Source: Dioscorea cayenensis subsp. rotundata | Taxonomy: Eukaryota; Streptophyta; Magnoliopsida; Dioscoreales; Dioscoreaceae | Assembly: GCF_009730915.1 (NCBI RefSeq) | Contig: NC_052489.1 | Coordinates: 4,863,622 to 4,927,621, forward strand | DNA length: 64,000 nt | Direction: 5' to 3' | Shown here: positions 4,338-42,660 of the stretch, piece by piece | Position numbering within the stretch: the first letter of the stretch is position 1 | How the letters are laid out: the number at the start of each line of letters is the position of its first letter | Notes under the pieces: generated by a model | Told to the model about the DNA's origin: nothing | The model's input: the letters and a program-made list of their open reading frames with translations, nothing else | The model's database searches: none | Program-made: the position numbers and the translations under genes

Positions 4338-6626
4338 CTAATTTTGTGCACACATTAATGCTTCAGCTGTGTTGGGATGCAATCTACTGCGATGTGGGCT
4401 TATAAATCTCCCACTTGTACTGAAAGCTGTCTCTAAAGCTTCTATTGATACTGAAATTGCCAAAATATCTCTCGCAATTAATTGCAATGTAGGATATTTA
4501 AGAGCCAACTTCCACCAACTTAGAATATCCAAATAATTTTTTCTTGGCATCAACCGCTTTTCCAAATAATGGTCTGATTTAGTGTACACACTCCCAATTT
4601 CAGACCCAGAAGAAGCAACATATAAATCAAAATCGCACATACAACCTGACCCACCATCATGACTTAATGGTACTTGTGTAAGATTATTTGTTGATGACCC
4701 GGCCATTGAAACACCTTGTTCACCAATCTTAAATTTTGATGAATATTCAGCAACTAAATCATAACTTTGAACTTTAGCAACTTCCATCTTTCCCATTTCA
4801 TCACCATAGAACAATGGGAAATAATATTCCAAAAATTTGATCTTATATCTAGGATCTAATATAGTTTTCACACACATGATACCATGAACTTGAGCCCAAT
4901 ATTTATCAAATTTTTCTTCCATTTTTGATGCCAAAAGTTGAATGCAAGGTTGCCCACAATTAACCAAATGCATCAATTCCATCTTAATCTCACATATCTT
5001 GGGAAAAAAGAGATTGGCAGTGGCGTATTTAGTCCAGGAAAATATCTCAGTGATATCATGAATATTTTCAATGTACCACAAATTTGTGTAGTGATTTCCC
5101 ATTCTTCATCTAATGGGAGACACTTATAAAGGGGTTCCCTTTGTTTCAAACTTTTAAAAACATCTTTGTAACAAATGACAACATCAAGCATTAAATAAGT
5201 GGAATTCCACCTAGTTTTACAATCCAAAATCAATTTCTTAGTGCAAGAGATTTTCAATTGGCATGCTGTTTCTTCAAACTTTTCATTTCTTTTTGGTGTA
5301 ACTCCAAAATGCAACACTATCACGAACTTTTTTAATAGTTTCAAAGATAATCTCTAAACCATCTTTGATAATTAAATTTAGAATATGCGCATAATACCGA
5401 ACATGCAATAACTTTCCATCAATCCAAACTATGTTACTTGACAATTTGTTCAAAATTAAATTCACCATCGAGTCATTTGTTGAACAATTGTCTAATGTCA
5501 ATGCAGATAACTTGTGATCAAGATTCTAATCTATTAAACAATTTGTGATCACATCACATAGTATATCAGCAGTATATGGGCATGGTACATAAATGAACCG
5601 AATCACATAAAGAATGAAATAACATTAAAGATATATACAAAAAGCTAAACTAGTTCAACACTTGTCAATCAAATAACTCATTACATAAATAAAATTTTCT
5701 TCTATTATTATGTTAAAAAATGATAACAACTTTTGAGGGAAGAAATTCATTCCATAAATAAAAACATATATGAAATTTCAAGTGTTAAAGTTATAGCAAA
5801 TTGAGTATAAACATAATATCATTTATAATTTTATATGTAAGAATACCGAAAAATTATAGTTAAATAAATAAAAGCAATACCTAATAATCCGACTTTGCAA
5901 GCTCCAATTAGCATTAATGAAATGTGTTGTGATTACCATGAATCTTTTTTTTTATTATTGCTTGAATTGTCCACATGTCCGTTGTAATTGCAACTTTACT
6001 CCCATTATTTTCAAGCAATTTCATTGTTTTCTCTTTTTCTTGCTCATATATTTTTAAATATATCTCTTCTTATCGTATGTAGGCCAATTTTTTTAAATAA
6101 TGGTTGAATAACCCCAGCAAGCTTTTGAAACTATTCATGCTCAACCATTGATAAACGATACTCATGTACAATAATCATTGATGCTAACTCTTTTCTTGCA
6201 ACATCTTCATCAAATGTGTATGTCCCAATTGAAGCCTTGCCTTTATTATCTAGTTTATGCCTCAAAATGCTTTGCTTTATATCTCTAGTTTTTCTCAATG
6301 GGCATGATGCAAAATGATCATGTAAATGTTCCGTCCCATTTTTTGTATCCCCTCCAAGTTTTTTTTTTTACAATTATTACATATTGCCTTTCATTTATCA
6401 TCTATTTTTTTTCTCTTATAATGGTTCCATACAGCTGATTTAGACGAGTCTTCGTGACCAATTTCAATTCTCCACTTTCATTCATCGGCAATATTTGACT
6501 TGATCCAACCAGTATTGTTGATTCAAGGTGTATTCTAGATTGTTCACAACTTTGTTGTTCCATGGATTGTCCACAACTTTGAAGAGGTGAAATAGGTAAA
6601 ATCTCTTCATTAGAACCCTCATCCAT
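4338..6626 (-). pseudogene. hAT transposase pseudogene (BED zinc finger, RNase H fold, hAT dimerisation domain)
   Basis: Reading on the minus strand from 6626, the order of domains is that of Ac-type plant hAT transposases. First comes an N-terminal region ending in a BED-type zinc finger (Cys-x2-Cys near 6370, then a His..Cys pair near 6310). The core contains TLDNCSTNDSMVN, then AHILNLIIKDGL near 5370, then KTRWNSTYLML near 5210. The C-terminal dimerisation domain (LDILSWWKLALKYPTLQLIA, then SAFSTSGR-like residues) ends at a stop at 4338. Frames break between 5900 and 6200, near 5500, near 5290 and near 5000, so no full protein can be made. The conserved Cys before AHILNLI is replaced by Tyr. 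Confidence 0.88.
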
Positions 6627-11531: not shown

Positions 11532-12184
11532 TATATCTTTGGGAAAATTACTGTTTACCCTCGTGAATTTCAAAAATTCCCAAACAACCCATCCAATTTT
11601 GGCAAACCCCGGACAACCCTTCCGTTATTGTTCAACTTCCCTTTTACCCATACAGTTCACTTGAAATGCGACCATGTTACAAAATTCCATTTTTGCCCTT
11701 GAAAATGGCGAGAAAAAATGGCCACTCACATCATGTCCAACCTTTATACATACAATTTTGCATTTTTTTGTTGCCTTTTGTCAAACAAAGTTCAGAAGGC
11801 TCATCATATCTTCTTCTTCTTCTTTTTCTTATTCTCCTCATTTGCCTTGTTATATTTGAATTCTATCGGTTTCTTGATAAGATGAGAATTTCTTCGATTC
11901 GAGGGCTATTGTTCACGGCGCTGACTTCTTGGGAATTGGTGTTAGCTTAGCTGAGATACGTGAGCGATTGGGTCTTGATGTTCCCCGTGTCAGGGTGAAG
12001 TTTATCACACCCAATGGATATAAAACGGTTTGTCCAATAGAAAACGAGGTTGACTTCCAACGGATGTGCCATTGTCGATCTTGTCTAGATAGACGCTGTG
12101 CCATTGTCGAATCCTACTGAAAATGAGTTTTTGTCGTTGTAAGATTCTTCTCTTTTATGTTTATCTAGTTGTATAAGTTGATTA

Positions 12185-12355
12185 CTGTTTAACGTCGCCT
12201 GCCTTTGTTTAAATACATTATTTTATATTTAACAATTGTCTTCTTCGTTTAATTTATTTGTCAGTATTTAACTATTTACATTACCGTTTAGCATTGTAAT
12301 GTATCATTTAAACATTTTATGTCTCTGCTTAAAATATTTTCTTTTCCGTTTAAAC
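12185..12355 (+). repeat. 20-nt GTTTAA array in the first intron of the deleted MULE unit
   Basis: GTTTAA or a one-base variant starts at 12187, 12207, 12227, 12247, 12266, 12286, 12306, 12327 and 12348. The array fills the interval between a GTAAGA donor (near 12138) and a TTGCCAG acceptor (near 12370). The bases between motif cores are not conserved. Confidence 0.85.
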
Positions 12356-12667
12356 TGAAGTGTTGCCAGGTGGCCAATGGAAAATTTATGGTATCCCGTG
12401 CACAAGAATTAATGACGGCATTAAATTTTTTCTCGTTAATGAGAAAAGCTAGGTCCCCCGTGTGTTTTCCTTTTTTTTCTCGGATTTAAAGCGTCAACTG
12501 GCTTACGGACTTCACACCATAAATGAGAAAGAAGACCACTTCCCCTGAACACCCCCTCCTCCTCGTCCTCTACTTCTTCTCGGATGAGTTTCATCTTCAT
12601 GTGTCCAGTATATTCGTTTAAAGGATGTGTCATGATGATCTTCTTCTGGAGAATCAATCACACAACA

Positions 12668-13135
12668 AGTTAAACTTTCTTTTCCTATTCAAGTCAGAAA
12701 GCCCGCCTAATTGCCTGAATGCGGAGGATGACGGGAAAGTAATTAAGCGGAATTTTGACTTAATCAGGACAAGAAAGTTTTTATGCATTGCTTGATTACA
12801 GAGGATTCTCCGGAGAGGGTGACCATGACACCTACTTTAAAACAAAATTGATATTTATCACTTGAGAATTGTTCTCATCGTTTAAAATATTTTCCTTAGT
12901 GTGCAAATATTATTGTCTGTGTTTAACTCATAGGATCTTCGCTTCATTCAGACCACAAGTTAAACTATCTATTCTTGACCAGGTCGAAATGCCCGCGTAA
13001 TTGCCTTAATGTGTGGATTCTCCAGCGGAGGAGAACGGGCATTTTGACTTGGTCAAGAAAAGAAAGTTTAACTATCTTTTTACTTATTGCTTAATTGCGG
13101 AGGATTCTCCAGAGGAGGATAACCATGACACATCG
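12668..13135. repeat. Tandemly duplicated small hairpin segment
   Basis: Two hairpins about 290 bp apart are related to each other. The better one has 38-base arms at 12958-12995 and 13036-13073 (AGTTAAACTATCTATTC on the left, AAAGTTTAACT closing the right) around a 40-base loop. The first spans about 12668-12783. Each is followed by the same GAGGATTCTCC, then ACCATGACAC. No coding sequence is present. Confidence 0.7.
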
Positions 13136-13535
13136 ATTATATTCAAACTGTTTAACTACCTTATTTAACTGTTCGTGTTCTACGTTGTACAGGTTCAAGT
13201 TGATGCACATGTTATGCAACCGCCGTGAGCATTCGAAGGTACAGATACTTGTTGAGGAAAGCTAAAATCTTAATAGACGAACTAGGATAGACTCGTAAGT
13301 GTCCGATGTCCATGAAGACAATGTAAATGTTGTGGATGTTGTAAATGTTGTAAATATTTTATTTGAAATGAAACAAATGTATCTGAGTGTGAACTTTTGA
13401 TATTTAATCAGAGACCATTGTAAATGTTTAAATATTTTAAATGAAACAAACTGATTTGAGTGTCAACTTTTGATATTTAAATATTTTTAGAAACAAAAAA
13501 GGGCATTGTAAACAAATAAAATGTTAAACAAAATC

Positions 13536-14155
13536 GCTTTACTACTTAAACAGTGATAACGGTGTTTAAACAAAAAATAAATATGTTTAAACAGTGACAA
13601 CGGTTTAAACAAAAAAATAAATATGTTTAAACGATATACAAATTATTTAAACAGTGAACCGATAGTTTAAAGAATATATATATATCATTGTTTAAACGTA
13701 AAAAAGTTGACGTTTAAACAGAGACCCATGCGGTACCCAAGAGGATTGATGGAATGTTTGTAACACAATGTTTCGGAAAAATATCCATCTTCAACACGAT
13801 GTCGCAGAAAGCATTCAATTTAAACAATCACATATATTTTAAAACAGTTAAATCAAAATATTTAAACGGTTTACATATTGGTTTAAACGACATAATGTTA
13901 GTAACAACATTCAATTTAAACAGTGAACAAGCAAGTTGCTCAAGTGTTCTTTTCATGGAGGCTCTGTCAATGAACACAATGTCAGTAACAACATTCAATT
14001 TAAACAATAACATATATTATTAAATAATCAAATGATAATATTTAAACGGTTTACATATTTGTTTAAACTATATAAAAAGGTTTTAAATAGTTAACCAATA
14101 TGTTAAACACTGAATCATATTTGTTAAACATTAAAGATTGATATTTAAACAGAGA
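13536..14155 (-). repeat. 20-nt TTAAAC (antisense GTTTAA) arrays in the deleted MULE unit
   Basis: TTAAAC recurs about every 18-22 nt between 13536 and 13730, then again in 13815-13930 and 13995-14155. On the minus strand, the sense strand of the Ulp1-type gene whose remnants lie here, it reads GTTTAA. It is the same family as the arrays at 12185, 14998 and 22473. Confidence 0.75.
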
Positions 14156-14570
14156 GAGTCATGATAAGTGGAGTACTTTCCTTCGAGGGATGACATGTTG
14201 GCTTCTATCGTCCCTTGCTTACTTCCCGCCACTTCTTGCTTGCAATCGACCAGTCGCTTGCTAGGACTTCACACTGCAGCATCTTCCTTACAAGCGAAGA
14301 AAAACTTTGAGACAATGGTGGAAAGCGGCAATGGTGGAAAGCAACAATGGTGGAAAACGAAGAAGAACTACGAGCTAAGGAGCCAGTAATGATTGTCTCT
14401 AGGGATTAACACTTGTTGGTCACTTAAAGTGGGTCCATGTAGTGAAATACCTTTTTTGCCCTTTAAAATGGTGGAAAAATATCGCCCAATCACATCATGT
14501 CTGACTTTATGCATACAGTTGTGTACTTTTTTGTGAAACACATTTTAGAAGGCTCTTTATATCATCTATT

Positions 14571-14621
14571 TCTTCATCTTCTTCTTCTTCTTCTTCTTCT
14601 TCTTCTTCTTCTTCTTCTTCT
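14571..14621 (+). repeat. (CTT)n microsatellite
   Basis: An uninterrupted CTT/TTC run lies just upstream of the PB1-like exon of the transposase. The duplicated unit has a shorter run near 11812-11824, so the repeat expanded after duplication. Confidence 0.8.
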
Positions 14622-14997
14622 CATTTGGTTTGTTCGATTTGAGTTCAGTAGTTATATTATGGATAGTTTTTGTGGTATTGCTAGATACAACGGTGAGGGA
14701 AGAGTGCTAATGTTCACGGCGCTAACTTCTTGGGAGTCGATGATAGCTGAGATATGTGAGTGATAGGGTCTCGATGTTTCCCGTGTGAGGGTGAAGTTTA
14801 TCACACCCGATGGGTATAAAATGGCTTGTCCAATAGAAAACGATGTCGACTTCTAGCGGATGTGTCACGTTCACTTGATCTTCAAATGCTCTGTAGTCGA
14901 CCTTGTTATGGAGAAAGACGATGTGGCATTGTCGAATCCTACTGAAAATGAGTTTTTCTCGTTGTAAGATTATTCTCTTTTATATTTATCTAGTTGT

Positions 14998-15162
14998 ATA
15001 AGTTCATTACGGTTTAACTTTGATAGGCTCTGTTTAAATATATTCTGTTTGCATTTAAATTTTATCTTCATCGTGTAACTATTTGACTTAACGTTTAAAT
15101 TATGATTTTATTATTTAAGCACATTATGTCTCTGTTTAACTTATGGATGGTTTCGTTTAAAC
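14998..15162 (+). repeat. 20-nt GTTTAA array filling transposase intron 1
   Basis: The motif or a close variant starts at 15012, 15032, 15053, 15073, 15093, 15113, 15134 and 15155, a spacing of 20-21 nt. The array occupies nearly all of the 213-nt intron between GTAAGA (14964) and GACAG (15176). Confidence 0.88.
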
Positions 15163-15320
15163 TGAAGTGTTGACAGGAATTCGGATTTTGCAAGCTTCCC
15201 AGTCAACCCAATGGCGAACCTGACGGTGTGGGATGCCATCTTTCCTCGTTAGATCATTCTGAAGTGTTGTCGTTGGATATCGGACAACATTTTGAAGGCG
15301 TTGAACATTTCAGGGATGCA

Positions 15321-17079
15321 TGACACGTCCGAATATGCGTGTAAACCGCAAGTGCACGGGTGTCAAAGTGATAAAATACCCGGTGAGTCCGGTAGTCGAA
15401 TCCACAGAAAACAGGGCTACTAGTACTAACCTCTTCTTTGCCTTCTAGCCTAATGATAAATGGAAAGGTGTGGTGATCTAATGTGTGAAGAAATGAATAC
15501 CGGAGACGAATATGTAAGGGTGAAATGGAGGGAGAATCTCAATCAATAAAATTGAGGTACCCGGGTAATGCTTCCCCTAGGATCTAACATGAAGTTCAAG
15601 ATTCGCTAAATGCTTCTAAGCCGAGTCTAATAAGTCGAGGTAATCCAAAAACAACCGGCCCTTGCCTCCAAGCCAAAGGTACTAGTCCCTTACAAGGTCC
15701 CGGTGGAGAAATCGCTCAATCTCAACACCTCACACCCCATATGACCGCAATACGCTCTAGAGACACCTAAGAGTGAAACTGATTCCTAAAGATAGATCCA
15801 ACCCTAATTCCCGGCGAAGGATCCCTAACCCCATACAAGGTCCTGGCGGAGAAATCTCTCAATCTCACGCCTCACACCAAATATGGTTGCATAGAGTCTA
15901 GGGAATACGAAGATAGGAAACACTCAGTCGGAAGGGAAAGGGGACACTCTACTATCTCATGACTCACCTTCTCAACCCTCTTTAACCTTGAAGTTCTAAC
16001 TCTAATGGAGACCTCTCTCTCATCAAAGTAACAAATCATGCATATACAATCAACCACAAGGATCAATAAATCATGCAAGCAATGGGAACACAAGATTAAA
16101 AACTCAAATCAACTCGGATTAACTAGAAACATAATGCAAATCAATACAAAAGAATAGATCCTATGGTTCACATGCCCAAGTACCTACTAGGGTTTAGCCC
16201 TCCATGGGGCAAGTTACAAGACAATGATTAATACAATCAAAAATAACAAAAACCATAGAGAAAACCCCCTTGAATTCGTGATGATTGGCCTTGGTGGGTA
16301 GTTCAACGTCTTCAAGGATTCCTCTCCGAAGCTAGATCGCTAGTGGCTTCTCAAGTTCTATGACGGCGAAGAAAACTATTAAAGTTGGTGAAGAACACCC
16401 TCCAAATCGGCAAAGACCTCCTCTCCAAACCCTAGCCGTCTCACCCCTCAAGAGCCGGGCAAAAGATGAGAAAGACTAGGGCAAAACAGCTATTTATAGG
16501 CCTTAGACTGCGCCTGTCACATGCCTCCACGCGCCCATGTGGATTTTCCATGCGCCCGCGTGGGCTGCAGGAATTTCCACACGGTCGCGTAGAATTTCCA
16601 CGAGGGCGCGTAAACAGTAATTCTGCTACAGTATTAGCTGCAGTACTCTCCATAATCACGGTCCAAACACTCTTCTCTTGAGGCCACATGGTCGGGCACA
16701 TGTCCATGTGGTAGACAATAAGACTTTTTTTCATCGACGTATCTTTGAGAGGTCTTGCAATCTTCACAAAGAGAAGGAACATGAAGATGTGGCTGCCTTT
16801 GTGCCCTTCCAACTAGTGAATTGACTTGAATCTTCTTGGAAGTTGGCACACATCTCCACGTTCATGAACTCCTCTCGTGTCTTGGTCCTTGAATTGAACA
16901 AGAACTCCCAACATTGTGCCTTTATAGCTTATCTTTGCTTCCTTTTTACTCTTCAAGGTATTCACAACCTATATGCATAAAAGAACACCAAATACACAAT
17001 ATGAGACATAAACCATATTAAAATGATGCTCAATGCATGTAAAACATATATAGAAATATGTCTACTCAAGCACTTATCA
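15321..17079 (-). mobile_element. Solo LTR inserted in the transposase exon
   Basis: On the minus strand it begins TGATAAGTGCTTGAGTAGAC (from 17079) and ends GTGTCA (15321). The 5-bp flanks are ATGCA (15316-15320) and ACGCA (17080-17084), one mismatch. Joining the flanks restores the transposase order FRDA then RNFAI-type residues, so it is an insertion. No primer site or internal region adjoins it, hence a solo LTR of about 1.76 kb. The stretch near 15345-15410 (CCGCAAGTGCACGGG, then CCGGTAGTCGAATCCACAG) resembles the LTR ends of a widespread Gypsy-like plant family. That identification is from memory of the motif only. Confidence 0.78.
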
Positions 17080-18271
17080 ACGCACTTCGAAATTTTGCAA
17101 TCAAACAGAATTTCGACTTCAAATTCATAAAGAAGGAGAAACACCGAGTGACTGTGGAATGCGCTGCCGTTGGTTGTCAATGACGCCTTTATGCATCAAA
17201 AGAATATAATAAAAATACTTTCAGAATAAAGACAATGAACCCGTCACACACTTGCGGTGGTGGAGTGGGATCTGCCTCACACCCAAAAGCGTCCAAAAAA
17301 TGGGTAAGCGCACGGGTAATTCAGAAACTCAAAGAGCGGCCCTTGTACAAAGCCATCGACATTTAGAAGGACATGTTGTATGAACATGGTGTCCACATTC
17401 TATACAAGCAGGCTTGGTTAGGAAAAAAGCATGCCCGGGTGGTGTTCGATGGCAGCGATATCTCTAGTTATGATTTGTTGCTTTGGTACGTGGATAAGGT
17501 GGTTGAGACAAACCTCGGCAGCATTGCGATTGTGGAAAGAGACGGTGAGCGGTTTAAACGTGGATTCTTTTCTTTCAGAGCGTGTATTTTCGGATTCAAG
17601 AAGGCTTGCAGGCCGCTGTTGTTTATCGATGGTACCCACCTGCTTAGAAAGTATCGGAGTACTGTACTGGGTGCTACAGGCTAAGATGGAAACAATAGTT
17701 TCTTCCACGTCGCCTTCGGTATTGTCAACAACGAGACCGATGCCAATTGGACTTAGTTCATATCCAAGTTAGGTGATGCTTTATACGAGAAAGGAGATTA
17801 TCATGTGATAATTACATTCGTCTTGGACAGGTCCAACGGCCTTGTGAAAGCTATTGCGAGAGTCTTCCCTTCTTCCCCACATGCATACTGTCTTCGACAC
17901 TTGGAGGCCAATTTCATGAAAGCCAACGTCAGACTAGGGAAGGCATTGAGAGAGGAGTGCTGGTCTATATACTTTCATATTGCGTGGACATCTACGGGTA
18001 AAGATTTTGATGATACCGTGAATGAACTTCAGGCCACATCCGATTAATAAATCAGATATGGCACATTGGTCGAATTATCTATTCAGAGGCAAGCGTTGGG
18101 GTGAGATGTATTCAAATGTCACCGAGTTGTTCAATGCTTGGATTAAAAAAGCTCGGCATTTGCCGGTAACGAAGATGGTCTACTCCATAAGGTATTTGAA
18201 TATTCATTTTCACTTAAGAATTCGTATTATCCTTTAAAATAGTTTATAAATATTCAAATATCTTTTTCTGT

Positions 18272-18358
18272 GTTTAACCATCTACATCATTGTTTAATTT
18301 ATCATAATACTGTTTAATAAAGTGTGTTTATGTTTAACTATCAATGTCTTCGCTTAAC
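18272..18358 (+). repeat. 20-nt GTTTAA array in transposase intron 2
   Basis: The motif starts at 18272, 18292, 18312, 18332 and (as GCTTAA) 18352, a spacing of exactly 20 nt. It lies inside the intron bounded by GTATTT at 18192 and TACAG at 18392. Confidence 0.9.
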
Positions 18359-18984
18359 CTTGTCTGAGATTTGTGTTGTACGCGCTGTACAGGTTCAAGT
18401 TGATGTGCATGTTATGCAATCGCTGTGAGCAAGCAAACAAATGGGAGACCTACTTGTGCCCGGACATACATTCTAAGGTGGAGATACTTATTGAAGATAG
18501 CCGAAATCTTCGTGTTGGTCATTATGTTGATTATCGTTATGAAGTGATTAACCAATGCAGCTACTCTGTAGATCTTGCCATCAGAATATGCTCATGTCGC
18601 AGGTGGCAAGTTTATGGTATCCCGTGCAAACACGCTTGCGCTGTAATAATGCAGACAGACACCGACGTTTATCGATTTATTAGTAGCTACTTCACCGTCG
18701 ACAATTACAAACTGGCGTATAAGGAAGCTATATTCCCCATACCCGACGATGACAAGCCTACGGACAGAAATCGTGAATTGCGTCTGCCACCGCCTGTGAC
18801 GAGAAGGCAACTTGGGAGTCCTAGGTGAAAAAGGATCGAGTCACAAGCCTATGAGGTCCGCAAGTTACGTTGTAGCCGCTGCCACGGCTCCGGTCACAAT
18901 CGCAGATTTTGCAATGAAACTGTCGCCGACTAGCCATTGTAAAACAGCTGATTTTTAAAAAGAAACAAACTTAATTGTGTGCCA

Positions 18985-19280
18985 ACTTTTCATTTTTAAA
19001 CAGAGAAACCTTATTCTTACAGTTAACACATGTATTTAAATAGAGACATTGTTATTTTAAACGGTAAATAGTTATTTTCATAAATGACTAGTTCTCTTAA
19101 ACTGTAACATGGATATTTAAACAATGAAACTTAAAATTAAACAATGAAAGTGCAAGCTAAACATAGATACATGTAAATAAATATAGATACATGTAAATAT
19201 AGATACATGTAAATTTATATTGACAAAATTTGTCATGTTCTTTGAAAACAATGAATTGAATTTAAACTAGTTTACATTTG
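18985..19280 (-). repeat. TTAAAC repeats between the convergent MULE genes
   Basis: Loosely phased TTAAAC/TTTAAA motifs fill the spacer between the end of the transposase and the end of the Ulp1-type gene. A short ATAGATACATGTAAAT tandem lies at about 19160-19215. Motif orientation is that of the Ulp1-side gene. Confidence 0.65.
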
Positions 19281-20061
19281 AAACTAACACAGCGTATTCT
19301 ATGAACCCGCTTTCAAACACTCACCTTTGGCAGTGATGCCGGCTGCCCTCCCCTCCTTATGTACGCGGGAAACATACTTTAATCGCAGATAAGGGACGTC
19401 CGTCTGCAGTAGCCGTAGCTTCTCATCTGCAAGTAACTGCTCGATAAACCGCATCACATAGACGGCGCAGTCGACACTTCTTTGTTTTTGTCGTGGGGTT
19501 TCAGTGTCGTGAACAAGTGGGTACTTTGCGGTCGCTGATTCGCCGAACTCCATGTCGATACAAAGGTCGAATAGGTTCCGCTGTGGAGGTATACAAGTTG
19601 ATATTAGAATACCAGTTATTTACCAAACACTATTACTCAAACACAAATTATTAAACCACTTACCATTTCTAGCGCGTCTTTATCGTATTCCTTGCTTTGG
19701 CATGAAGAATAATGCATGTATTCTTGTTTGTCATTATCAAGGATGACGACATGGAAGTGGTCATTCATAATTATCGGGAGGATGACAATTTCAACATCAT
19801 GCAAGTTGCGCCCAGCATCTCCGACATAGCCATAGTGGTATCATGTGCGTCTTCCTGCATTGACATAAACAGTGCCAGTGGTCGTGTGATGGAGGTGCAC
19901 TTCTTATAACGATATGGCACTATCCTCAGCAAATTTTGGATTATACATGCGAAAGCGTCCATCACATCGTCTGCGACCATCTTCTTCCCCTCAAGCAGAT
20001 CGAATAGCCTGGACCGTGTTGTGCTGACAGAGTCATTCTTCCACACGACAGTGCTGTGGTT

Positions 20062-20215
20062 AAACGGTAACAGAGATACGTAAACAATATTGTAAATATT
20101 TAATTGATACATCAACCGTTTAAATTCTATTTGGAATATTTAAACGTTAAATATAAAACTTAAAGGGTAACATGTAATAGTTTAAACAATACCATAAAAA
20201 CTTCAAACTTACTTG
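20062..20215 (-). repeat. 20-nt repeat array in an intron of the Ulp1-type gene
   Basis: TTAAAC, TAAAC or TTAAA variants occur about every 20-21 nt from 20062 to 20215; on the gene's sense strand they read GTTTAA. Confidence 0.78.
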
Positions 20216-21474
20216 TCCATAGGGTAGTTGAGAAAGATCCTTATCAACTCATGTTCGTACTTGTTGAGGCGCTATTGCCTAACGTATTTTTTCTTCTTCG
20301 GAAGAAAGACTTTCCGAACTTCTTCTAATTTTTGACTGGTATTGATCTTCTCTCTCGTCGCCATTTCGGCGACATTCCCTTGACCCTCGTCAACAGCTGT
20401 TTTGGGATCATCATGCGGCACTATTGTTGCCTGTTGTCGGTGTTTAGCACCAGCATCATCTTCCTTCGATGCGGGCATGACGGCAAGATTAAGCGGAGAT
20501 ATATCCTTACATGCTTCTTGTTGTTGTGCGATTGTGTCTGCCTTCGATGCGGCACTGTCGGCCGTTAGTTCCACCGTGACTATGATTTCGTTGACAATAG
20601 AGTCAACGACCTTCTCAATCGTGGCCACGACAACAGCATCAATGGGAGACAGAATGTTAGCTAGTTCTTGTTCTTCAGGGATTGTATCCATCTTTGATGT
20701 CGCACTGTCAGCCGCCCGTTCCACTGGGTTCATGATTTCGTTAACAACAGAGTCATTGATCTTATCAACCGCGGCAATGACAACATCATATGCGATCTCC
20801 TCCACCGTGACGGCTATGTCATCAACGGTAACACCATTAGCCACCGATGGTGCTGCTATTATTTTATCATCAACTGGCGGTGGAGACGGAGGCATTATTG
20901 TTTTCCTCTTTTTCGCAAGCCTCTTTGAATGAGGCTATTTTCGAATGGCCTCCCCGATGATGTCGTCGTCGTCGGATTCTGACGCTGCGTCCGTCCCGGG
21001 TGCTTCATTTGTTCGGAGGGACGGCGTAGTCGATTGTGACCAATCTTCCAATGCCTTAACCCGAGCGACAAGCCGAGGAAACTCGATCATTAATATCTGG
21101 CAAGCCTACAGAAGAGTTGTAGTGACATCCTCGCCTAGTGCCGTCGGGGGCGCTACCATGGTCGGGGGGCTGCCACGATCGGGGGGACTGTCGATGTCGT
21201 CATCGGTGGGGGTGTTACAATCTGGCGGGGTAATGGAGGGCTTCTCCGGCGTCGAGGAATGCGTGAGCGTTTTGGGCTGGAAGTAGGAGAACGGCATCGA
21301 GCGTGCACAGAAGTGGTTGTCTTCTCATCTTGTCTTCGAACAAGTGGTTTCAAAGCAATAGCATCCAACCAACGGTTGGCCCGAACAAATATATCTTCAT
21401 CAAGATTCCCCGGAACCAACTCAGGAAACTAACATGTGTAAACCAAACAATTTAGAGAAATCATTCAGTTTAAA

Positions 21475-21600
21475 CAATAAAAACTATAGTTACACATTGA
21501 ACTTATATATTTAAACATTGAAGAATACTTTTTAAACGGTAAATGAATAAAGTTAAACGGTAAATAATATGTTTAAACATTAACGTCTACTGTTAAACAC
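21475..21600 (-). repeat. 20-nt repeat array in an intron of the Ulp1-type gene
   Basis: TTAAAC cores occur at about 20-21-nt spacing. On the minus strand the intron starts GTGTTTAACAG (near 21603) and ends ACATGTTAG (near 21430), so the array is the intron itself. Confidence 0.82.
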
Positions 21601-22472
21601 ATTGTTCATGATTTATTATCTCTTTTCCTTCGAGATATGACAAACTGGTTTCTATCGTCGCTTGCTTCCGGTAAGTATTTTCACCGTAGCACAGCATCCT
21701 TGGGATCTTGCAGAAACGGACTTTCTTTCCGGTTCCAGTCAGCTCATAAAACCAGATGTTAAGCGCGACAGTGCAACTCTTGATATACCCTGTGTTGGTC
21801 TTCTTCCCCGCGCATCTAGCTTGCACTCGAACGGTTGCTTGTGGAATGTCCTCCATAAGCCACTTGTGCGTCGCCTGCGCCATGCGTATCGCCCATGCCA
21901 GGTAGATCATCGACATAATCAACGATCCAGTTAGGAACCGAGCAGGAGGTATTTGGGAAGAGGATAGTATCCATGAGGTACACCATTAGTAGTTTCACAA
22001 AATTTTCTTCTTCTCCCCTCTGTCCAACGAGTTGCTGAAGAGTGCTCCTGATGGAGTCTCTGTGTCTCTCGTAGGTTTTGGATAAATACCTCTCTTTGAA
22101 AGCTGAGCGTGTTTTCTTCTTCTGAAACACGACTGCGTCTCCATCGCAACGCAGACCAAGAACGAAGGCCACATCTTCAGGCTTGAAAGTCAGCATGCTT
22201 TCCCCGATCATGAATTTATTGGTGCGGCTATCGTACCTTTGCAACAAAGAATTAAGAAGGGGCCACTCTTGGAATACAGCTTCCAACTCAGTAAATGTTG
22301 CAAACGGTGTCCTTCGGATGATCTCCCAGTATCGAGGGATCATGTGAACTTTCAATTCAGCCATGGTTTCCACTGCCGATATTAAGTAGCATCGCCCATT
22401 AACTAGATTAACCGCTATAATCACAAGCCTGCGATAATAACAACACATTCAGTCAGCCGTATTCACAAATTG

Positions 22473-22625
22473 TTAAGCGGAAATATAAGTTGTTAAACGG
22501 TAAACTCTCAATTTTTAAACAGTGATATCACTTGTTAAACAGAGACCTATATTATTAAATAGGGATGCCAATATTTAAACGGAGATGACAAAACTTAAAC
22601 TGTAAAAGCTCATTCTTTAAACGGA
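22473..22625 (-). repeat. 20-nt repeat array upstream in the Ulp1-type gene
   Basis: TTAAAC or a one-base variant starts at 22473, 22493, 22515, 22535, 22555, 22575, 22595 and 22617. The first exon with the conserved domain begins after a TCGCAG acceptor on the minus strand near 22430, so the array is likely a 5' intron. Confidence 0.88.
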
Positions 22626-23316
22626 GACCTCATTTGTACAACTGCAACCATATCAATTGAAAGGGGAAATGTACATTATAAACATTACACAAATCGCAAC
22701 AATCGAAAAACTATTTTGATCGTGTACACAGACGAAAATGTAAAACAAAACAAAACCCTAGCCAAGAAATCTCCCTGCAGACTAACAAAACCCCAACCGA
22801 TAAATCCCCCTGCAGGCTTCAATGTCTTCTAATAAAAACAAAATCACAAAACAAAACCGAAAAATATTTCTTTGTAACAGAATAGTTAACATAAAACCAT
22901 AATCAATATCTTAGATTGCAAACTGATAAAATGCCGAATACTTGCGCGGGACTTCTTCTTCGAGACACCAGTGGAAAGAGAAAAAGTTTGAATTTTTACT
23001 AAAGATGTGCCTGAAAAAATGGTGGAGACGCGAGTTGAGAGAAGACAAGCAAACGACTCAAATGGGTCGTAGCCCTAAGGAACCCCCCACCCACTTCCTC
23101 TCATACCGCAGAAATAGCTGCAGCCACGACTTCTCATGCAAGGGCATTTTCGTCCATAAAATTTAAAAATCACTCCATTAACCACCGTTACATACTTTGG
23201 GGGTTTCAAAATCATGGAGTGTAAAAGGAAGGGGGTTTTGTGGATTGCAAAATTAGGGGTTTTTTTGGTAATATGGTAAACTTAGGGGTTTTTTTGGTAA
23301 TTTTCACTATATCTTT

Positions 23317-26587: not shown

Positions 26588-29500
26588 ATGATGGGTTTGA
26601 AGAGATGGGGGTTTGTTGTGTTTTGTTTGATTTTTGTTTCGGTTCTGATGCCGAGGGGCTTTAGAGGGAGGCAGCGGACGGGGGAGCTGTTGCTGGGCCT
26701 TGGGGTTTCTTCTCAGGAGGTAGATGAGGACACGGTAAGCGGAATTCCAGCTCTGTTGCTTCTATGGTTCAAATTTGTGGGCTTTGTGGTAGTTCTTGTT
26801 ACGAATAGCAAGGTTTTGGGTTGATGAATTCTATGGATCGATGGAGAGATTAGAATGTCGGGTTTTATCGATTGATTGTTTTAGCTGATGAAATGGTGCT
26901 TTTTTTTTTTTGTACTTCATTTTATTTTTGGTTACTATGTACGAATTTTGAATTTTTCTTCTTTCCTAGCTACAAGATCATGGGGGGAAAAAGGTCCTTT
27001 GATGAAAATTAGGACATTTAGTATGCATTCTACTATGATAAAATGTAGAAAAAGTTTGTCTTTTTCCATTGGTGCTGTGAACAATAGTTTTAACTAACAC
27101 TTTAAATCCTCTGAAATGATGCTACTTGTATTTTTTGATTATTTTGTAAAATACTGTCATTGCTTATAATTTTTTTTTTTTTGTGACAAATAGTCTATGT
27201 GGGAAGGTTATTACATTGATGCCCACTTGATCGAACCAGAGGTCTAGTGATGATAGTCAGAAGATACTTGTTTCCTGTAGTTTTACCTTTGTGGTAAACT
27301 AATAAACAATGAAATTTCAAAGTTCAAAAGTTTTATGGGATGCGGTAGAATATGGGCATGAATAAGGGAAACCTGAAATTTCCTACTCCTATAATTATGG
27401 TAGAAACATACATTATGTTTTACGGTTGCATGCCAAACTAGTCAAATAGACCTTATAATGTTTTTTCAGATAATTACCTGCACCCCGTGCACTCTCTGAG
27501 GAGGGAATAAAAGGTGCTTATGTAGATTAATCTCCAGATATAGTAAGACCATCTGTGGTCCACTGACTGCATGATGATTTAGCAGTCAATGCTTCAAAGT
27601 TTGGTTCAAGGTTTTGATGGTGTCCACTAATTCTACATACTTTGTCCTGGTTCTGTTGTTATGAGAAGAGGCATCTGAATAATGAGCGTGGAAGATAAAT
27701 TATCTCATGACTCATAACCATGACTTTTTACTACAGCAGGAAGATAATTTTGGATTTTTTTTCATATTTTGGCTGGATAGAGAAGAAACCAAGGATTTCT
27801 ACATCACACTATATGGAATATTAGTGCTCATTTGGCATTTTAAAGGCAAACATGCTTAATGCAACATTGTCGCATACATGGTTCCTTTGAATTGGGTCTG
27901 TATGGCCTTATTATTTGATGGGTTTATAGTTATTCAAAGGCAGCTGTCTTTTTGTTTGTCTGATATTGGATTGGAGTTGTATAATTGAAGTGAATATTTT
28001 ATTGCTAAACTTGCTTTCTTGCCCATCACAATAAATATAGAATGTAAAATTTTAAATATAGACTTGAAGCAAAAATGTATATAAATCCATGCAGGGGATT
28101 ATCATGCATATAAGTATTTAACTTATGAATATGCATATAACCATATAAAACCCATTCTTGAAACTAAAGAATCTGAAACCTCATAGTAGAGTTAGACATC
28201 AACTATGATGCCTATATATTCAACCCTAGGTGACTTGCTTTTGTTGTTTTTTTTTTTTTCCTTTTTTGGGTATGGTCATGCATGCTTTTGTCTTGTTTAT
28301 GTGTTTCTTCAGGCAATACGTGATATAAATTTTGACACCAGGACTCGTACTTTGATTCATTTCAGATGTAATTTCCTGTTGATTGCAAATTGGTCTTAGG
28401 GATGAAGATTATTATTTTATCACACACAAGCTCTTCAAAATTTTCACATTTGAGAACTTCTTTCCTCTACATGGAAACTGTGCCAACAATTGGGTTTTTG
28501 AAATGATGTCAACTCTTATGGCTTGAAGGAGTTGTAAACACATACTTATTGTGTTGTTCTTGTAGTTTTTTAGCAGAATGCTTACTTTGAGATTTCAACC
28601 AAGATTATTTAGTTTACTATGAAAATATTTCGACTCACTCCTCTGGCAATTCTCTCCCATGTTTATTGATCTTTCTGGCTATACTTCACAATTATCTTTT
28701 TGTTACTACCGGTAGCCACTTAAGCATGTCCATTGTTTTCTAAATGAACTGACAATTGTAGTATTCCGGAATTTGATAGACATTCTTAATTGTTTACTGC
28801 AAGTCATGATTATTGCTGCTATGCTTCCAATGTGCACATACTATGCCCAACTGGCCATTGCATAATAGGAAAGAGACCTGTTCCCGTGTGTTTACTCAAT
28901 GTTTTCTATCACTTGGTAATGAAAACAGCAAGTTTGAAATGATAAGTTTCAGATTATTTCGTGTTTGCTATTCTTCATATCTCGGTTTGATTATAGTTAT
29001 CACTTCTAAATGTGGCTTTATATATTTGGCGGCCCATATTTATCATAAACTATGCCATTTGGCAAACCAACAGTAATGCACCCATTCAGATATTAAATAT
29101 AAACTAATGGAGGGTTGCAAACCAGTATGTTGTTCTTTTTATCAATAATTTTCTTGATGACTCTTATGAATACAGGTGGGAAGGATGTGGAGAAATTGTG
29201 GGCTAGATCCTCTGAACATAAATAATGTCATGAAAGGTCAATACCTTTCTATCCTAAGGGACATTAATAGTGATTCTGCTGAAACCAATCTTAAACTAAG
29301 ATCTCTTATGAAAGTTGGTATGCAAGAGGCTGACACTTTTATCGAGTGTATGAGAAAGCAAGACCTCCAATTTCATGCATCTGAACAGGATGATAATTCA
29401 AGGAACATGTTTGTTGATTATCAGGAGTCAAGACATGGTTGGGATCCTGCTGCTAGAAGGCATCTGGCCAGTCAACCTTTCCAAGTCATGGCCCCTCATC

Positions 29501-32500
29501 CAGCGCTATCTCCATCTCCATCTCCATCATCTTTAGCTCCAGGCCCATCCCCAGATCTTGCCTCAGTTTCATCCCCAAGTCCTGCGGTCTACTCACCTAC
29601 CCCAGCACCAGCATTTGATATGCCATCAGAAAGGCCTCCAACTCATGATGATCGATCCCCTGCCCCAACTCCTCTAGGCAAATCAAATTCTCACAGTGAA
29701 AACCTAAATAGTGCTCCAGTTGCGCCACCTAATTCACAAAGCAATTCTAATAAAACAATCATCATTGCTGTGACCGTGACAGCAGTGGGGACATCAATTT
29801 TTACTGCACTTCTATTTTGTTGCTATATTAGATGTTGCAGAAAGGATTCTAGTTCAGGAGCTTCCCATAGAGATGACAGACCCCTTTTGGCTTTGAGCTT
29901 AAGTGATTTCTCAGGTATGACTATGGTCTTGTTTTTAACTGTGTAGAAGTAAAATCTTGCATCATGGTGTTTCTTTAATATATTGTTTCATCTCTTAGGT
30001 TCTTCTCAAAAGTCCTATGGTTTTGGTGGTTCAATAAATGGTAATAAATTGGGGCCTTTATCTTTCAAGACGAGCTCGAACCAAAGTGGTCGTATATTAT
30101 CCTTCAATGGTAGCTTGGGGGAAAACCCAGCGCCAGGAGTAGTCTTGGGTATTTCAGAGTCTGAACCTGGCCCTCCTAATGCCCTGATTGATTCTGCTGC
30201 ACCAAAACCACCACTACCTCCCCCCGCGCCTCCAGTCCAGAATGCTACTCCACCTCCTGTTCCTGCACCTCCAGTGCCCCCTCCGAAACCTGGGCCTCGG
30301 CCTCCTCCTCCACCAAAGAATGCCATTCCTCGTCCGCCACCTAAAAGTTCAATTCCTTCAAGAGCTAAGCGTCCCGCACCTCCTGGACCAAACCACTCTG
30401 GAGATGCTACTTCCAGTCAACAATCTTATGATGATGATGCCAGTGGCTCTAAGACGAAGTTGAAGCCATTCTTTTGGGAAAAGGTCCTTGCCAATCCTGA
30501 TGATTCTATGGTGTGGCATCAAATTAAAGCGGGTTCATTCCAGTAAGGCACTTCACACCATTTAATAATGTTATATAATGTTGTATACAATTCTTTATTT
30601 TTTTGATAATGGATGCACTGAAAAAGCATAAAATTGCAGGTTTAATGAGGAAATGATAGAATCACTCTTTGGTTATAATTCTGCTGATAAAAGCAAGAAT
30701 GGGGGCAATCAAGTGTTAAAAAAGATCAATCCTGCTCATCAATACATTCAGCTTCTTGAGCCCAAGAAGTCACAAAATTTGGCAATTTCACTCAAGGCAA
30801 TGGGTGTGAAGGTTGAAGAAGTTTCTGAGGCACTAATGGAAGGTAAGCTTTTATATGATTTTGTGCATTAAACGCTTCTCCCCCCATGAAAGTTAGGAAA
30901 GAAGTATGTTAGTATGCAATATCTTTGATTTTGTTGAGTTGAAAAGCGCTCTCTTCTATGTTATTTGAGCTTTGCTACCTGCTTCACTCATATTCAGTAT
31001 TTAATCATGTTTTTCCTAAAAAATCTCTCTCATGATGATTCATCCCCACTCTTGGAGTAGCATGGGTGGGTTGCCAGTTGGCTCTCTCTTTGTTTAATTA
31101 TTTTCTTTGTCCATCTTGCTATGAAAAGAATGGCATACATGATGCATTGCTTTAACTTGGTTTCCATTATCTTCTGTCAAGCAGGGAATGAACTTCCTTC
31201 AGAGCTACTTCAGATATTGTTAAGAATGGCACCCACTGATGATGAAGAATTCAAACTGAGGGTATATACTGGTGATGTTACCTTGCTTGGCCCTGCAGAA
31301 CAGTTCCTCAAGGTCTTGGTGGATATTCCATTTGCTTTTAAAAGGATGGATGCCTTATCATTCATGGCTTCTTTCTCAGAGGATACCTCGACCTTAAAGG
31401 ATGCTTTTGAAAGTTTAGAGGCAAGTCTCTATATCCAACATTTTGAATTTTTTTCTCATATGATATGCTGTCACACCTACAAAAATGGCAACAAGTTACC
31501 AAGAAGAAACCAAAACAATAAGATGTCGGTCCACCTTATTTGCTTAACAACAATATAAATCATGCTCCACCTTTTCTCTTTTCTTGAGAGAGAAGATGAT
31601 CTTTAGGGATAATATTATTCTTCATCAGTCTTTTTTTTTTCCGTTTTTATCATTCATATTGACTAAATTGTTTCAATTTTTTTTTTCTCTATTATAATTA
31701 ACAATGTAATATTTGATAAGTGTTATTGTGCAAAGGAGCTCAAGCTCTTCCCTTCATGGATATTTATTTTGCTTGTTAAACACTGGAGTAATGCAATGAT
31801 TAAAAAAGCAGTATCCAAAGAGCTGTAAGATAATTGATGCGTACTTGGATAAAAACTAAAGGAGCCATTACCATTGACCTTTCAATATGTTCAAGAATTA
31901 TGTAAAACAGTCAAATTGTAACTGATGTTCATTTTATAAATTTCATATTTTCCTACATATTTCAAACCCTATAGATTTCAATGAATATTAATCTAAGTTG
32001 TTGTTGTCCTTTAGCTTCTGAACCATCATGCAGTTCTCTAAAAGTCAAAATCAATCGTTTGTTGCTATTGTCTGATATAGACTTTGAACTTTTTGTTATC
32101 AACCAGGGACAAAAAGACACACACATATATCTGATATGAATGTTTAGCACTATCTGGTGTTTTAGGATTAGCTGATATCAATTTAATGGATGTCAAATCC
32201 ACTAAAAATTTCTTTCCCTCAAGTCAAGTATTAAATTTTAGCTTGCTTTTGCCTGGGGCAATGGACATGATGTTAAATTCAGCATGTGTCAGTTGTTATC
32301 TGTCTTATTATTCTCTTCTTTTCTGTGCGCACCTCAAAAGAATGCTTTGTTTTCTTATCTGTCTTACTATCTCTCATGAGAATAAATATAAATCTTCTGT
32401 TTCAGGTAGCGTGCAAAGAACTAAGAAGTAGCCGTTTGTTTCGCAAGTTGTTAGAAGCTGTTCTTAAAACTGGGAATCGTATGAATGTTGGCACCTTTCG

Positions 32501-33257
32501 TGGAGGGGCAGATGCATTCAAACTTGATACACTTTTGAAGTTGTCAGATGTTAAAGGCACAGATGGGAAGACGACACTATTGCACTTCGTTGTTCAAGAA
32601 ATTATTCGATCTGAAGGGGTCCGTGCTGCACGTATGGCTAGTGAGCAAGGGAGCATCTCTAGTTTGACCACTTCTAGCTTGGGTTCCTTTGATTTAACTG
32701 AAGATCCTCCCCAAGAAAATGGAGACTATTATCAAACCTTAGGCCTTAAGGTTGTTTCTGTTTTAAGCACTGAACTTGAGAATGTCAAAAAGGCAGCAAC
32801 TTTGGATTCTGATGTCTTGACAAGTACAGCGGCAAACCTTGGCCATAGATTGGTAAAGGCAAAGGAGTTCTTGAACACAGATATGAAGAGTTTGGAGGAG
32901 CAAAGCGGTTTTCATCGTTCTCTCAAGTCTTTTGTAGAACATGCTGAAACTGATATTGTGTTTTTACTGGAAGAAGAGAAGAGAATTAGATCATTGGTAA
33001 AAAGTACCACAGATTATTTTCATGGAAATGCTGGAAAGGATGAAGGCTTGCGACTGTTTGTTATTGTTCGAGATTTTCTTGGGATGGTAGATAAGGCGTG
33101 CAAAGAAGTGAAAGAGTCATCGAATAAGATACAGAAACAACCAAAAACCAAGGGAGATCCAGCAATAACATCTCTAAAAGACCACAGGCAGCGTCTTTTC
33201 CCAGCGATTAGGGATCGTCGAGTGGATAGTTCAAGTTCTTCTGATGAAGATTCATAG
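26588..33257 (+). CDS. Class I formin-like protein (actin nucleator), six exons
   Basis: Formins nucleate and elongate actin filaments; plant class I members span the plasma membrane. Exons by splice sites and frame are 26588-26734, 29176-29914, 29999-30542, 30640-30842, 31185-31420 and 32406-33257, giving 906 residues. Visible in order: a signal peptide (1 to about 25), a short extracellular part with VDEDT at the first exon junction, a Pro/Ser-rich region (about 154-210), a transmembrane segment (about 243-266) followed by Cys/Arg, a proline-rich FH1 region (about 365-426), and an FH2 domain (about 449-870) starting LKPFFWEKV and holding GNRMNVGTFRGGADAFKLD. Intron 5 uses a GC donor. The start is the upper of two adjacent ATGs. 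All frames join without a stop, so the gene appears intact. Which Arabidopsis FH is orthologous is not decided. Confidence 0.93.
31421..32405 (+). other. GC-AG intron of the formin gene
   Basis: Exon 5 ends TTTAGAG and is followed by GCAAGT; the next exon begins after TTTCAG at 32405. Joining here gives ESLE then VACKELR in phase 0, as the FH2 family needs. No GT donor nearby gives an open frame. AG|GCAAGT is the standard form of plant GC donors. Confidence 0.88.
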
Positions 33258-35770
33258 CCTTTGTCTTAGAGGTATGTTTTCATTGTTTGCTTGGAAGATG
33301 ATATTGATTTGGTTTTCTATATCCATTTTAATTGAAAAAATTGTAGTCGCAAGTTTTACTGCCTTCCTACCATTTATTCTTATACTGCTGTAGGATGTTA
33401 TTGTTAAAGGTCTTGTTAGCAGTCGTCAAAAACCCACTTTTTTTTTTTTTGGTGCTTCTAGAAAACCGCAAACCCTAGTTATTTGTCACCATTTCTCATA
33501 AGTCTCTAAAACCGGTTATGTTTGATTTTTGACACATTAAAGGTATTTTGTGTTATTTCACCTGGTGATTAGGTGTACATGTGTCTTGTGATAAATAGCA
33601 ACTTTCTGGGCTCAGATAGACTGATAGACAATCAGATCTATTTTTAGTATACATGTGAAATATATATATATATATCAAAAAATATGAAATACATTAGGTT
33701 TTAATCGACACCATAGACTTAAAAGACTTCCTTGTTTTCCATTGATCGACTAATGTAGTGTGTAGCAAGACAATTAAACCTCTCATGATGTTTATCTGTC
33801 ATGTTTTCAGGTAGCCTAATCTAGCATCACGGACAACTTGCGAATCACTTCTTTTTAACCAGAGATGATATCACATGGAATCTCCGAAATTTCTTCCATA
33901 ATTCTTTGATTGATGAACTTGGAACTGACCAATATCTAGTTAAGATTGAGGAATAATGCAAAGATGGGAGGATAAAGTTGGAAAAAACAAGGTATTGTCC
34001 ATTTGCCGCCTAGGTACAACTTGATAAATTACTGGTACTAAACTGTTAGCTGTTAGATCTGTTCTTTGATTTTGTACAGGTACCAAGGTAAGGACTTCAT
34101 TGTGTATTAGAAACAAAACTGCTCCTTTTTATTGATTTCAGTTAGGGAAAATAGAAAAGAAATTTGTAGGTGATGATTTTTTTATTTCTGATATTGGTTT
34201 TACATTCATCCAACAGAAAAAAGGACTGCTGAGAATATCTGTAATGGCTTCTTGTCTGTTAAGTATATTATCAGCAGTTCAAAATTTCATATTAAAAGGC
34301 AAAATCCATCATCAAGATATGCTTGTTCAAGTTAATGTGGGTTTATCATTGATTGCATTTTGTTAAAGTTTTGATTGCAGATAATTTCAAGGGCCAGTTC
34401 AGGTATATTGTTGGTTTTCTATGAAAAAATGTGCAAAGATATATTAATTCTTGCAAACATGTGAAAATAAGAAAAGAAAATATAAATAGTATCTGCAAAA
34501 TTTTGAAGCATAAATTAAGAATTTTGTTTTGTTATAGGTTCTTTATCTGAATTTGGATCATTTTATTTCCTGGATGTTGTTGCTTCACAAAACTATAAAG
34601 ATTTTCAGGGATGTTTATGCTTGAATCCAAATCAGAGCAACCACCAATAAAATGATGACCATTTAGTGAAGTAGTAAAAATACTTTAATTTGGACATTTT
34701 TTTTTTTTCTTCTTTCACAATATTTTTTTGGTTTGTATGTGTGTGTGTGTATATATATATATCCCTGTAAAAATCCAAAATTGCAAATACATACATACCA
34801 CGCTATTATTGGGGCATCCAATTTTCAACTCCACAATATGTATACACCTTAAATTCAGTGAAACTGCAAGTAAAAGCAACATGACAAATTCAGTAAAACT
34901 GCAAGTAAAAGCAACATGAAATCTGAGAGGAAGCTTGCAAAGTTCTAATAATGCATGTAATTGGAATAACATGTTAGTTCAAAATCTGCTGTTTGTTTTA
35001 ATTGTATTTGAAAAATTCAAATTAGTTACAATTACTTTATAATGGAATTTGGAACTACGTTCATAGTTCATTTTCCATGAGTTAAAATTCAAAGCACAGA
35101 ATTCATAAACATTAATTAATTATTAAATATTAATTTATTAACATATGTGCAAATACTTAATTTGCAAACGCCTGGAATATTTAATATAATTATTTATTAG
35201 ACATTTGTAAAATTTTAATGAAACGTAATCATACATAAAAATAATTAAATAAATACTTAATTATTTTTTTAATAATTAACGTAATCTAATGCCGTATTTT
35301 ATACTTAATAAAACTTAATAATTATCTAGAGTAAAGGTAACTTCAACCAATGTACTTCTAAATACTTAAACCAAACATAAATTTTTCAAATCCAAATTTA
35401 CAAATCTCTCCAACTAAACACTAAAATTTGTAATCCGCTACTCCAAATATATCCAACCAAACACTAGATTTAACTTTTTTGAATGTTTAAATACAAATAT
35501 TTATAACTATACTGAAATTAAAAATTTATTATATTTACAACTGCATCTAACCAAACACCCGGTAAAACAAGTTAAATAACTTAATAGCAAAATCAAGCAA
35601 GATGCTAAGAAGAGATATTTTATTGTAATTCAAAGAATGAGCTGATAGGCACAGCCCAGCAACGTACAAAGAATCAGTGATTCAGAGTGTGAAAATGCAG
35701 ATGATCATCAGTTCTTACAGTAATAATCAAAATTTGTCTGAACAAATCCTTTAACTTGACATATTTACAA
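33258..35770. other. Formin 3' untranslated region and intergenic DNA
   Basis: A possible 3'-UTR intron runs from GGTATG (33272) to TTTTCAG (33810), 14 bases after the stop. The remainder is AT-rich with (TA)n and (TG)n runs (33660, 34736-34762). Around 34820-34915 a 27-base segment (AAATTCAGT-AAACTGCAAG type) occurs twice in tandem. No gene is seen. Confidence 0.5.
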
Positions 35771-37897: not shown

Positions 37898-38259
37898 TGG
37901 AGATGGTGAGAAGAGGGCATTGGATAGAGAAAGGGGGGGTTTGGTGAGCGAACGAAGAGGAAGAAGAAGAGGAGGAGCATCGAGAGATCCGCCGAAGGCT
38001 TGACAACGTGCGGGTTTTCCAGATCTTGGCGGGTTCTTTGAATCGATAATCTCACAGCGCTGCCTTTTGACTTCCGTTTGAGAAACGTGGCTTTCTCTTA
38101 TTGGTCTATGGGTTTTAAAATTTTAATTTCGATTACATAAAAAATAACTTTTTATTTTTTTTTAAATTTTTTTTTTTATGAAAATATGTTATTTTGGTAA
38201 ATCAGCTTTCTTTTTTCCATAAAAATAATTAAAAATCAACCTTACAATTTTATCATCAA
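37898..38259 (-). promoter_or_regulatory. Short upstream region of the PPR gene
   Basis: Only about 370 bases separate the PPR start from the second MULE. The part near the gene is GC- and CT-rich on the gene strand, the rest AT-rich. No TATA box stands out. Confidence 0.45.
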
Positions 38260-42652: not shown

Positions 42653-42660
42653 ATTTAATC

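Follow-up and report, generated by a model that had tools for sequence, protein, structure and literature searches.

The closest described counterparts of the locus considered here are the VANDAL elements of Arabidopsis, Mutator-like elements (MULEs) in which an element-encoded protein recognizes a short DNA motif. VANC21 binds its motif in intron, intergenic and terminal non-coding DNA, with loss of methylation (PMC5735166, PMC10398659), coding probes are bound much less than non-coding ones, and the VANC targets form fast-changing tandem repeats that are gained and lost between copies (PMC5735166). The VANC proteins described there carry DUF1985 and DUF287 domains and have variable regions with tandem peptides (PMC5735166). 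In the KI-MULEs, which lack terminal inverted repeats (TIRs), an Ulp1 domain is encoded in reverse orientation to mudrA (PMC2528002), a review describes KIU-carrying VANDALs as recognizing motifs in the non-coding DNA of their own kind (PMC13317346), and a role in anti-silencing has been proposed for the PMDs captured by MULEs (PMC5418596). Here we analyze a 64,000-nucleotide (nt) stretch of the genome of Dioscorea cayenensis subsp. rotundata (NC_052489.1, positions 4,863,622 to 4,927,621; termed the window, whose coordinates are used throughout). It contains an 11.8-kb MULE insertion at 11541-23307, the non-coding DNA of which holds arrays of a GTTTAA core repeated about every 20 nt, and we propose that these arrays probably serve as docking platforms for a VANC-like protein of the element itself.

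The phased arrays are real and are very unlikely to have arisen by chance. The core is found at 66 positions in the insertion (both orientations merged), with 28 pairs of cores at distances of 20-22 nt, 25 at 40-42 nt, 21 at 60-63 nt and one each at 18 and 25 nt, and the remainder of the window has 44 core positions with a single pair at 20-22 nt. The three series of starts originally reported from a sequence-only reading of this DNA all carry the core with at most one mismatch, and exactly so in four of the five units at 18272-18352, five of the eight at 15012-15155 and six of the eight on the minus strand at 22473-22617. The seven main arrays comprise 50 units and 43 spacings of 19 to 22 nt, with a mean of 20.44 nt (standard deviation 0.69) that bears out the suggested closeness to two helical turns; shorter arrays at 13524-13714, 13820-13883 and 19097-19157 are left out of this average. 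When pairs of cores with at most one mismatch at lags of 19-22 nt were counted against 400 dinucleotide shuffles per block, eight of ten non-coding blocks were above chance, seven of them at 0/400 and the intergenic block at 3/400, while the region 12371-13171 and a small intron near 19.6 kb contain no such pairs and are unphased. By this shuffle test none of the three terminal or 5′ blocks is phased, and neither is a long terminal repeat (LTR)-like insertion in exon 2 of the transposase gene (about 15340-17085, as judged from the sequence), where 108 of 400 shuffles reach the observed value. The exons, which had been said to lack the core, are unphased in all six blocks (4,280 nt) and hold one exact copy of it, at 17552. 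A scan of the whole window for recurring 6-mers (periods of about 15-59 nt, low-complexity words left out, top word per 60 nt) gave chains of at least four at four places, all within the element, the leading words being TTAAAC at three and TGTTTA at one, both of which overlap the core. The scan covered the entire window, with a formin gene among its contents, and on this result a general trait of the AT-rich DNA or introns here was rejected.

The insertion is bounded by a 9-bp target-site duplication (TSD), TATATCTTT, at 11532-11540 and 23308-23316, a 9-mer that occurs three times on the plus strand of the window, and its ends (GGGAAAATTAC...GTAATTTTCAC, read from the sequence) form a short degenerate TIR in which the similarity extends over about 10 bp (GGGAAAATTAC versus GTGAAAATTAC). 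A MURA transposase gene on the plus strand converges with a gene on the minus strand, here termed gene 2, that encodes a PMD/DUF1985-like N-terminus, a variable linker and an Ulp1 protease domain. The MULE domain of the transposase and the 9-bp TSD place the insertion in the MULE superfamily, and the Ulp1 domain antisense to mudrA together with the lack of a long TIR places it with the KI-MULE and ULP1-MULE elements. The transposase gene has a broken frame and specifies MuDR DNA-binding, MULE and SWIM domains, the joined pieces scoring 63.8 bits for MULE and 41 bits for DBD_Tnp_Mut in Pfam. The exon with DBD_Tnp_Mut and MULE (17098-18190) has stops and frame breaks, and the 3′ exon (18393-18933, stop codon at 18931-18933) contains SWIM and, at its end, a zinc-knuckle-like CSRCHGSGHNRRFC that was seen by eye and has no Pfam match.

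The motif had been claimed to fill the introns of both genes, and the introns do hold arrays. In the transposase gene, with splice sites assigned by eye, these are the eight units at 15012-15160 in intron 1 (14964-15176, GTAAG...ACAG) and the five at 18272-18357 in intron 2 (18192-18392). The two gene 2 introns at 20052-20209 and 21430-21660 have five units (two of them exact) at 20120-20208 and seven at 21470-21598, respectively. The arrays are also found beyond these introns, however, namely between the two convergent genes in the sense of gene 2 (18996-19267, minus strand, starts at 18996-19262), upstream of the gene 2 ATG in what is possibly a 5′ intron (22473-22622, minus strand, eight units), and in a region at the left of the insertion that we term copy A. 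The span 11541-23307 was originally taken as a single element, but the comparison of the sequence with itself leads us to read the part from 11541 to about 14400 (copy A) as a decayed, internally deleted derivative fused to the main copy (copy B). Positions 11657-12370 match 14420-15177 at 70% identity, and pieces of 12855-14220 correspond to intron 2, to the beginning of the exon with SWIM, to the DNA between the genes and to one gene 2 intron. Copy A has nine plus-strand units in its intron 1 (12187-12353) and, within 13524-14150, minus-sense arrays at 13524-13714, 13820-13883 and 14000-14145 that are partly duplicated as blocks of about 100 bp. It also has, within 12616-13134, a 190-bp repeat (12654-12831 and 12944-13131, 70% identity) overlapped by inverted repeats (12617-12712 and 12741-12841, with 12958-13073 self-inverted), and these could possibly form a hairpin and be a source of small RNAs.

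The exons of gene 2 on the minus strand are the N-terminal, PMD/DUF1985-like exon (21690-22431), which contains a frame break, the variable linker exon (20210-21429) and the Ulp1 exons (19299-20051). The Peptidase_C48 domain of the last reaches 34.5 bits on joined pieces and 23.9 bits on the one unjoined frame at 19302-19619, the cut-off being 20.7. Within the linker a peptide of about 41 residues is repeated in tandem (20515-20639 and 20665-20789, 75% identical in DNA), which resembles the tandem peptides in the variable regions of VANC (PMC5735166). A likely splice donor was noticed by eye in 21470-21660, and because the window reads EGKEI where the related proteins P0033 and P0034 (see below) have EGKEV and EGEEV, the GT donor may be lost in the window copy.

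Because the element has the VANDAL/KI-MULE layout, we read the arrays as docking sites of its own PMD/DUF1985-Ulp1 protein, which would give this monocot MULE a VANC-like anti-silencing system, and on balance we consider this to be the probable explanation. The protein would dock on multi-site arrays of units resembling TYWNYGTTTAA, and a distance of two helical turns between units would place the bound molecules side by side along the same face of the DNA, with cooperative binding. Once bound, the protein would free the element of DNA methylation and repressive marks, and would do the same for its relatives and for copies derived from it by deletion. We infer the Ulp1-side protein as the binder as well as the cooperativity and the anti-silencing outcome, and the transposase itself carries a MuDR DNA-binding domain, so the arrays might instead be internal sites of another protein, either the MURA transposase or a host factor, for instance one involved in chromatin or silencing. 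A MULE transposase is expected to work on the termini of its element, whereas those of the window element carry no phased cores, and a host factor would not readily explain the apparently different core of the relative P0004 that is described below. We therefore regard a different binder as unlikely, although it is the strongest of the alternatives.

The GTTTAA core itself is present as reported, but the motif is longer than claimed. Logos of 22, 24 and 22 units have in common T at -5, W at -3 and Y at -1 in addition to GTTTAA, and Y at -4 is clear in two of the three sets and weak in the third, which corresponds roughly to TYWNYGTTTAA. In nine non-coding blocks T-Y-W-N-Y-GTTTAA occurs 36 times in sense and once in antisense orientation, and in the other 52 kb of the window it occurs 4 and 0 times. 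The assertion that the core always lies on the sense strand of the local gene is nearly correct: of the cores in the nine blocks, 41 have sense orientation only, 4 antisense only, and 13 are palindromic (GTTTAAAC). A pyrimidine precedes the core in 62 of 68 units (C or T at position -1); C at this position forms a CpG with the core, and the pattern resembles what methylation-driven decay of CpG to TpG would leave. The strong sense bias would also suit a motif that works in RNA, with sense GUUUAA repeats in introns and 3′ regions used for splicing or for binding of a protein to the RNA, and the final intron 1 unit is about 20 nt from the acceptor in either copy. However, a mean spacing of 20.44 nt is near two turns of DNA, one array lies between the genes at 18996-19262, and copy A has kept its arrays though its genes are mostly deleted. 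Hence a role in RNA seems improbable, and more so than a different DNA-binding protein.

Also to be considered is a neutral tandem repeat that grew by slippage and in which the core is not selected. A unit was gained or lost in intron 1 between A and B (nine versus eight), tandem-repeat detection picks out a few array stretches with repeats of 20-21 or 40 nt, and the spacers, which had been described as not conserved, are near shuffled similarity in three of the seven arrays and above it in the other four, with the bases at -5, -3 and -1 favored. Against neutral growth, the three arrays with near-shuffled spacers still have cores that are 84-93% alike (82-95% over all seven arrays). Moreover, one core and one phase are common to eight separate blocks. 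Between copies A and B, the aligned cores are identical at 45 of 48 positions (six columns gapped) and the aligned spacers at 60 of 100 (14 gapped), so that the core is above the spacer with a Fisher p of about 1e-5; the corresponding identities are 209 of 238 in exon 1 and 107 of 139 in the upstream non-coding DNA. All these core figures are inflated to some degree, as a sequence had to be within one mismatch of the core to be taken as a unit. Neutral growth is in our view the least probable of these three alternatives. A recent tandem duplication of whole arrays was rejected because tandem-repeat calls cover only parts of the arrays, and phased A-tract bending or nucleosome positioning was judged unlikely as the core has a TpA step and keeps its G in 57 of 68 units.

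Relatives of the transposase come largely from the same genus. The transposase region matched 32 proteins at E values up to 1e-3, of which 29 are named Dioscorea and the best are 64-67% identical, and the N-terminal region of gene 2 matched five, with P0033 being 73% identical over the whole region. The search with the whole gene 2 protein gave no match at 1e-3 among 7,992 candidates scored, and the loci of the relatives were found in neither viral_contigs nor genome_contigs. Some relatives seem to be unspliced protein calls that run into introns, and their back-translation gives codons compatible with a motif rather than the actual DNA. The first 50 residues of P0004, which is 61% identical to the transposase, allow the 9-mer GTGTATAAT at nt offsets 0, 20, 42, 60, 80 and 102 and nowhere else, with gaps of 20, 22, 18, 20 and 22 nt, and the shorter GTGTATA fits at offsets 40 and 100 as well. 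GTTTAA is never allowed in these 50 residues, and GTGTATAAT has no match in the window. A six-unit chain of any 7-mer at steps of 19-22 nt is found in one of 295 fifty-residue segments from 37 proteins, that of P0004 itself, with the other segments reaching three units at most and 300 shuffles four at most. The P0004 stretch consists of two nearly identical blocks of 60 nt, so that the six sites cannot be counted as independent of one another. Nevertheless, for a single block, at least three of any 9-mer at steps of 18-22 nt occurred in none of 654 other segments and in one of 1,000 shuffles, and the second block alone also gives a chain of three. By eye, the stretch is located just ahead of exon 2, as is the array in the window, and the two apparently occupy the same intron. 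Related elements may share the phase and differ in the core, GTTTAA in the window and GTGTATAAT in P0004. The read-through of P0033 past its exon allows GTTTAA twice, 20 nt apart, and that of P0034 allows it once.

Several observations weigh against docking of a PMD/DUF1985-Ulp1 protein. Both genes are broken in the window copy, and the termini and the region upstream of the transposase gene have no arrays, although VANC21 also binds terminal regions. DUF1985 scores 30.4 bits in the window protein, under the Pfam cut-off of 35.1, and 29.2-33.1 bits in P0033-P0035, where all three are below the cut-off; PMD scores 34.8 bits, just under its cut-off of 34.9, which is passed by two of the three relatives (P0033 and P0034). 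DUF287 was not seen by Pfam at E values up to 0.1 in the searched pieces of the broken gene 2, the seven matches to solved structures all have E values of 1 or worse and none is convincing, and an AlphaFold model of P0033 with two relatives has a mean predicted local distance difference test score of 34.7 and no usable fold. Between copies A and B the identity of the cores does not significantly exceed that of exon 1 (p 0.32). Finally, two or three GTTTAA in succession, each 21 nt from the next, are allowed by 13 of 36 other proteins, so the P0033 pair is weak alone and only supporting. With DUF1985 below its cut-off, DUF287 unseen and binding a matter of inference, we call the window protein VANC-like rather than VANC.

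The proposal of a VANC-like binding array made in the sequence-only reading is partly supported by the MURA gene opposite a PMD/DUF1985-like and Ulp1 gene, the 9-bp TSD, the weak TIRs, the arrays in non-coding DNA and the conserved cores. Its description as an independent system is doubtful, since the layout makes common descent with the KI-MULE and VANDAL elements at least as likely. The window element resembles VANDAL21 (Hiun) with VANC21 and VANDAL6 with VANC6 in being a MULE with a DUF1985-like protein, tandem peptides in a variable protein region and a short motif that is repeated in introns and intergenic DNA, spares exons and changes in repeat number between copies. It differs in its monocot host and in the lack of arrays at its termini, in having a PMD/DUF1985-like region with Ulp1 in place of the DUF1985 and DUF287 of VANC21 and VANC6, and in its GTTTAA motif, which is unlike the VANC motifs YAGTATTAY and AGTTGTCC/AGTTGTAC (PMC5735166). 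In the KAONASHI (KI/KIU) elements and ULP1-MULEs of Arabidopsis, grapevine, melon and rice the Ulp1 domain is opposite to mudrA as it is here, and the rice examples mean that ULP1-MULEs occur in monocots, but the available parts of the cited literature mention no phased motif array in them. Likewise, MULE-Monocots group 47 (Mob DNA 2019; PMC6446971), to which we liken the window element by description, is a monocot group with SWIM or CCHC, with PMD in most members and sometimes antisense, and motif arrays are not mentioned in the part of that paper available to us. Among the matches listed, which represent a small part of the papers matched, we noticed no prior report of the GTTTAA motif or of arrays in Dioscorea, a member of the monocots (Liliopsida). 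Work by Sasaki from 2022 on coevolution in eudicots reportedly identifies three determinants, the sequence of the motif, its density and its helical periodicity, and places the origin among the eudicots. If that periodicity holds, the phase is already known from Arabidopsis, and what is new is the monocot host, the motif and the change of core at a like phase.

The remainder of the window contains other apparent transposon sequences and probable host genes. Open frames at 39888-42670 (minus strand) resemble, by eye, a second and different MULE transposase; three frames searched gave no Pfam match, and the 6-mer scan found no phased word there. The C-terminal part of a hAT transposase (hAT-like_RNase-H and Dimer_Tnp_hAT) lies at 4338-5105 (minus strand). 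Probable host genes occupy 29170-38122, including the formin gene (FH2 in 32277-33257) and a DYW-type PPR protein (35771-38122), and a Ribosomal_L28 match is found at 52762-53205.

In a broader and more tentative interpretation, to which we give somewhat less than even weight, monocot MULEs would use a VANC-like form of anti-silencing that conserves the spacing of two turns itself, with a core that can be exchanged between related elements. Protein and core would then co-evolve under a fixed arrangement of a multimer along one DNA face, and decayed derivatives such as copy A would keep their arrays and ride along. If this were true, sequence-specific anti-silencing by transposons would extend beyond the eudicots in which it has been described, and related elements with a like phase and different cores would provide a test of how targets change at a fixed geometry. 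Such a change of target at fixed binding geometry would also bear on sequence-specific epigenome editing.

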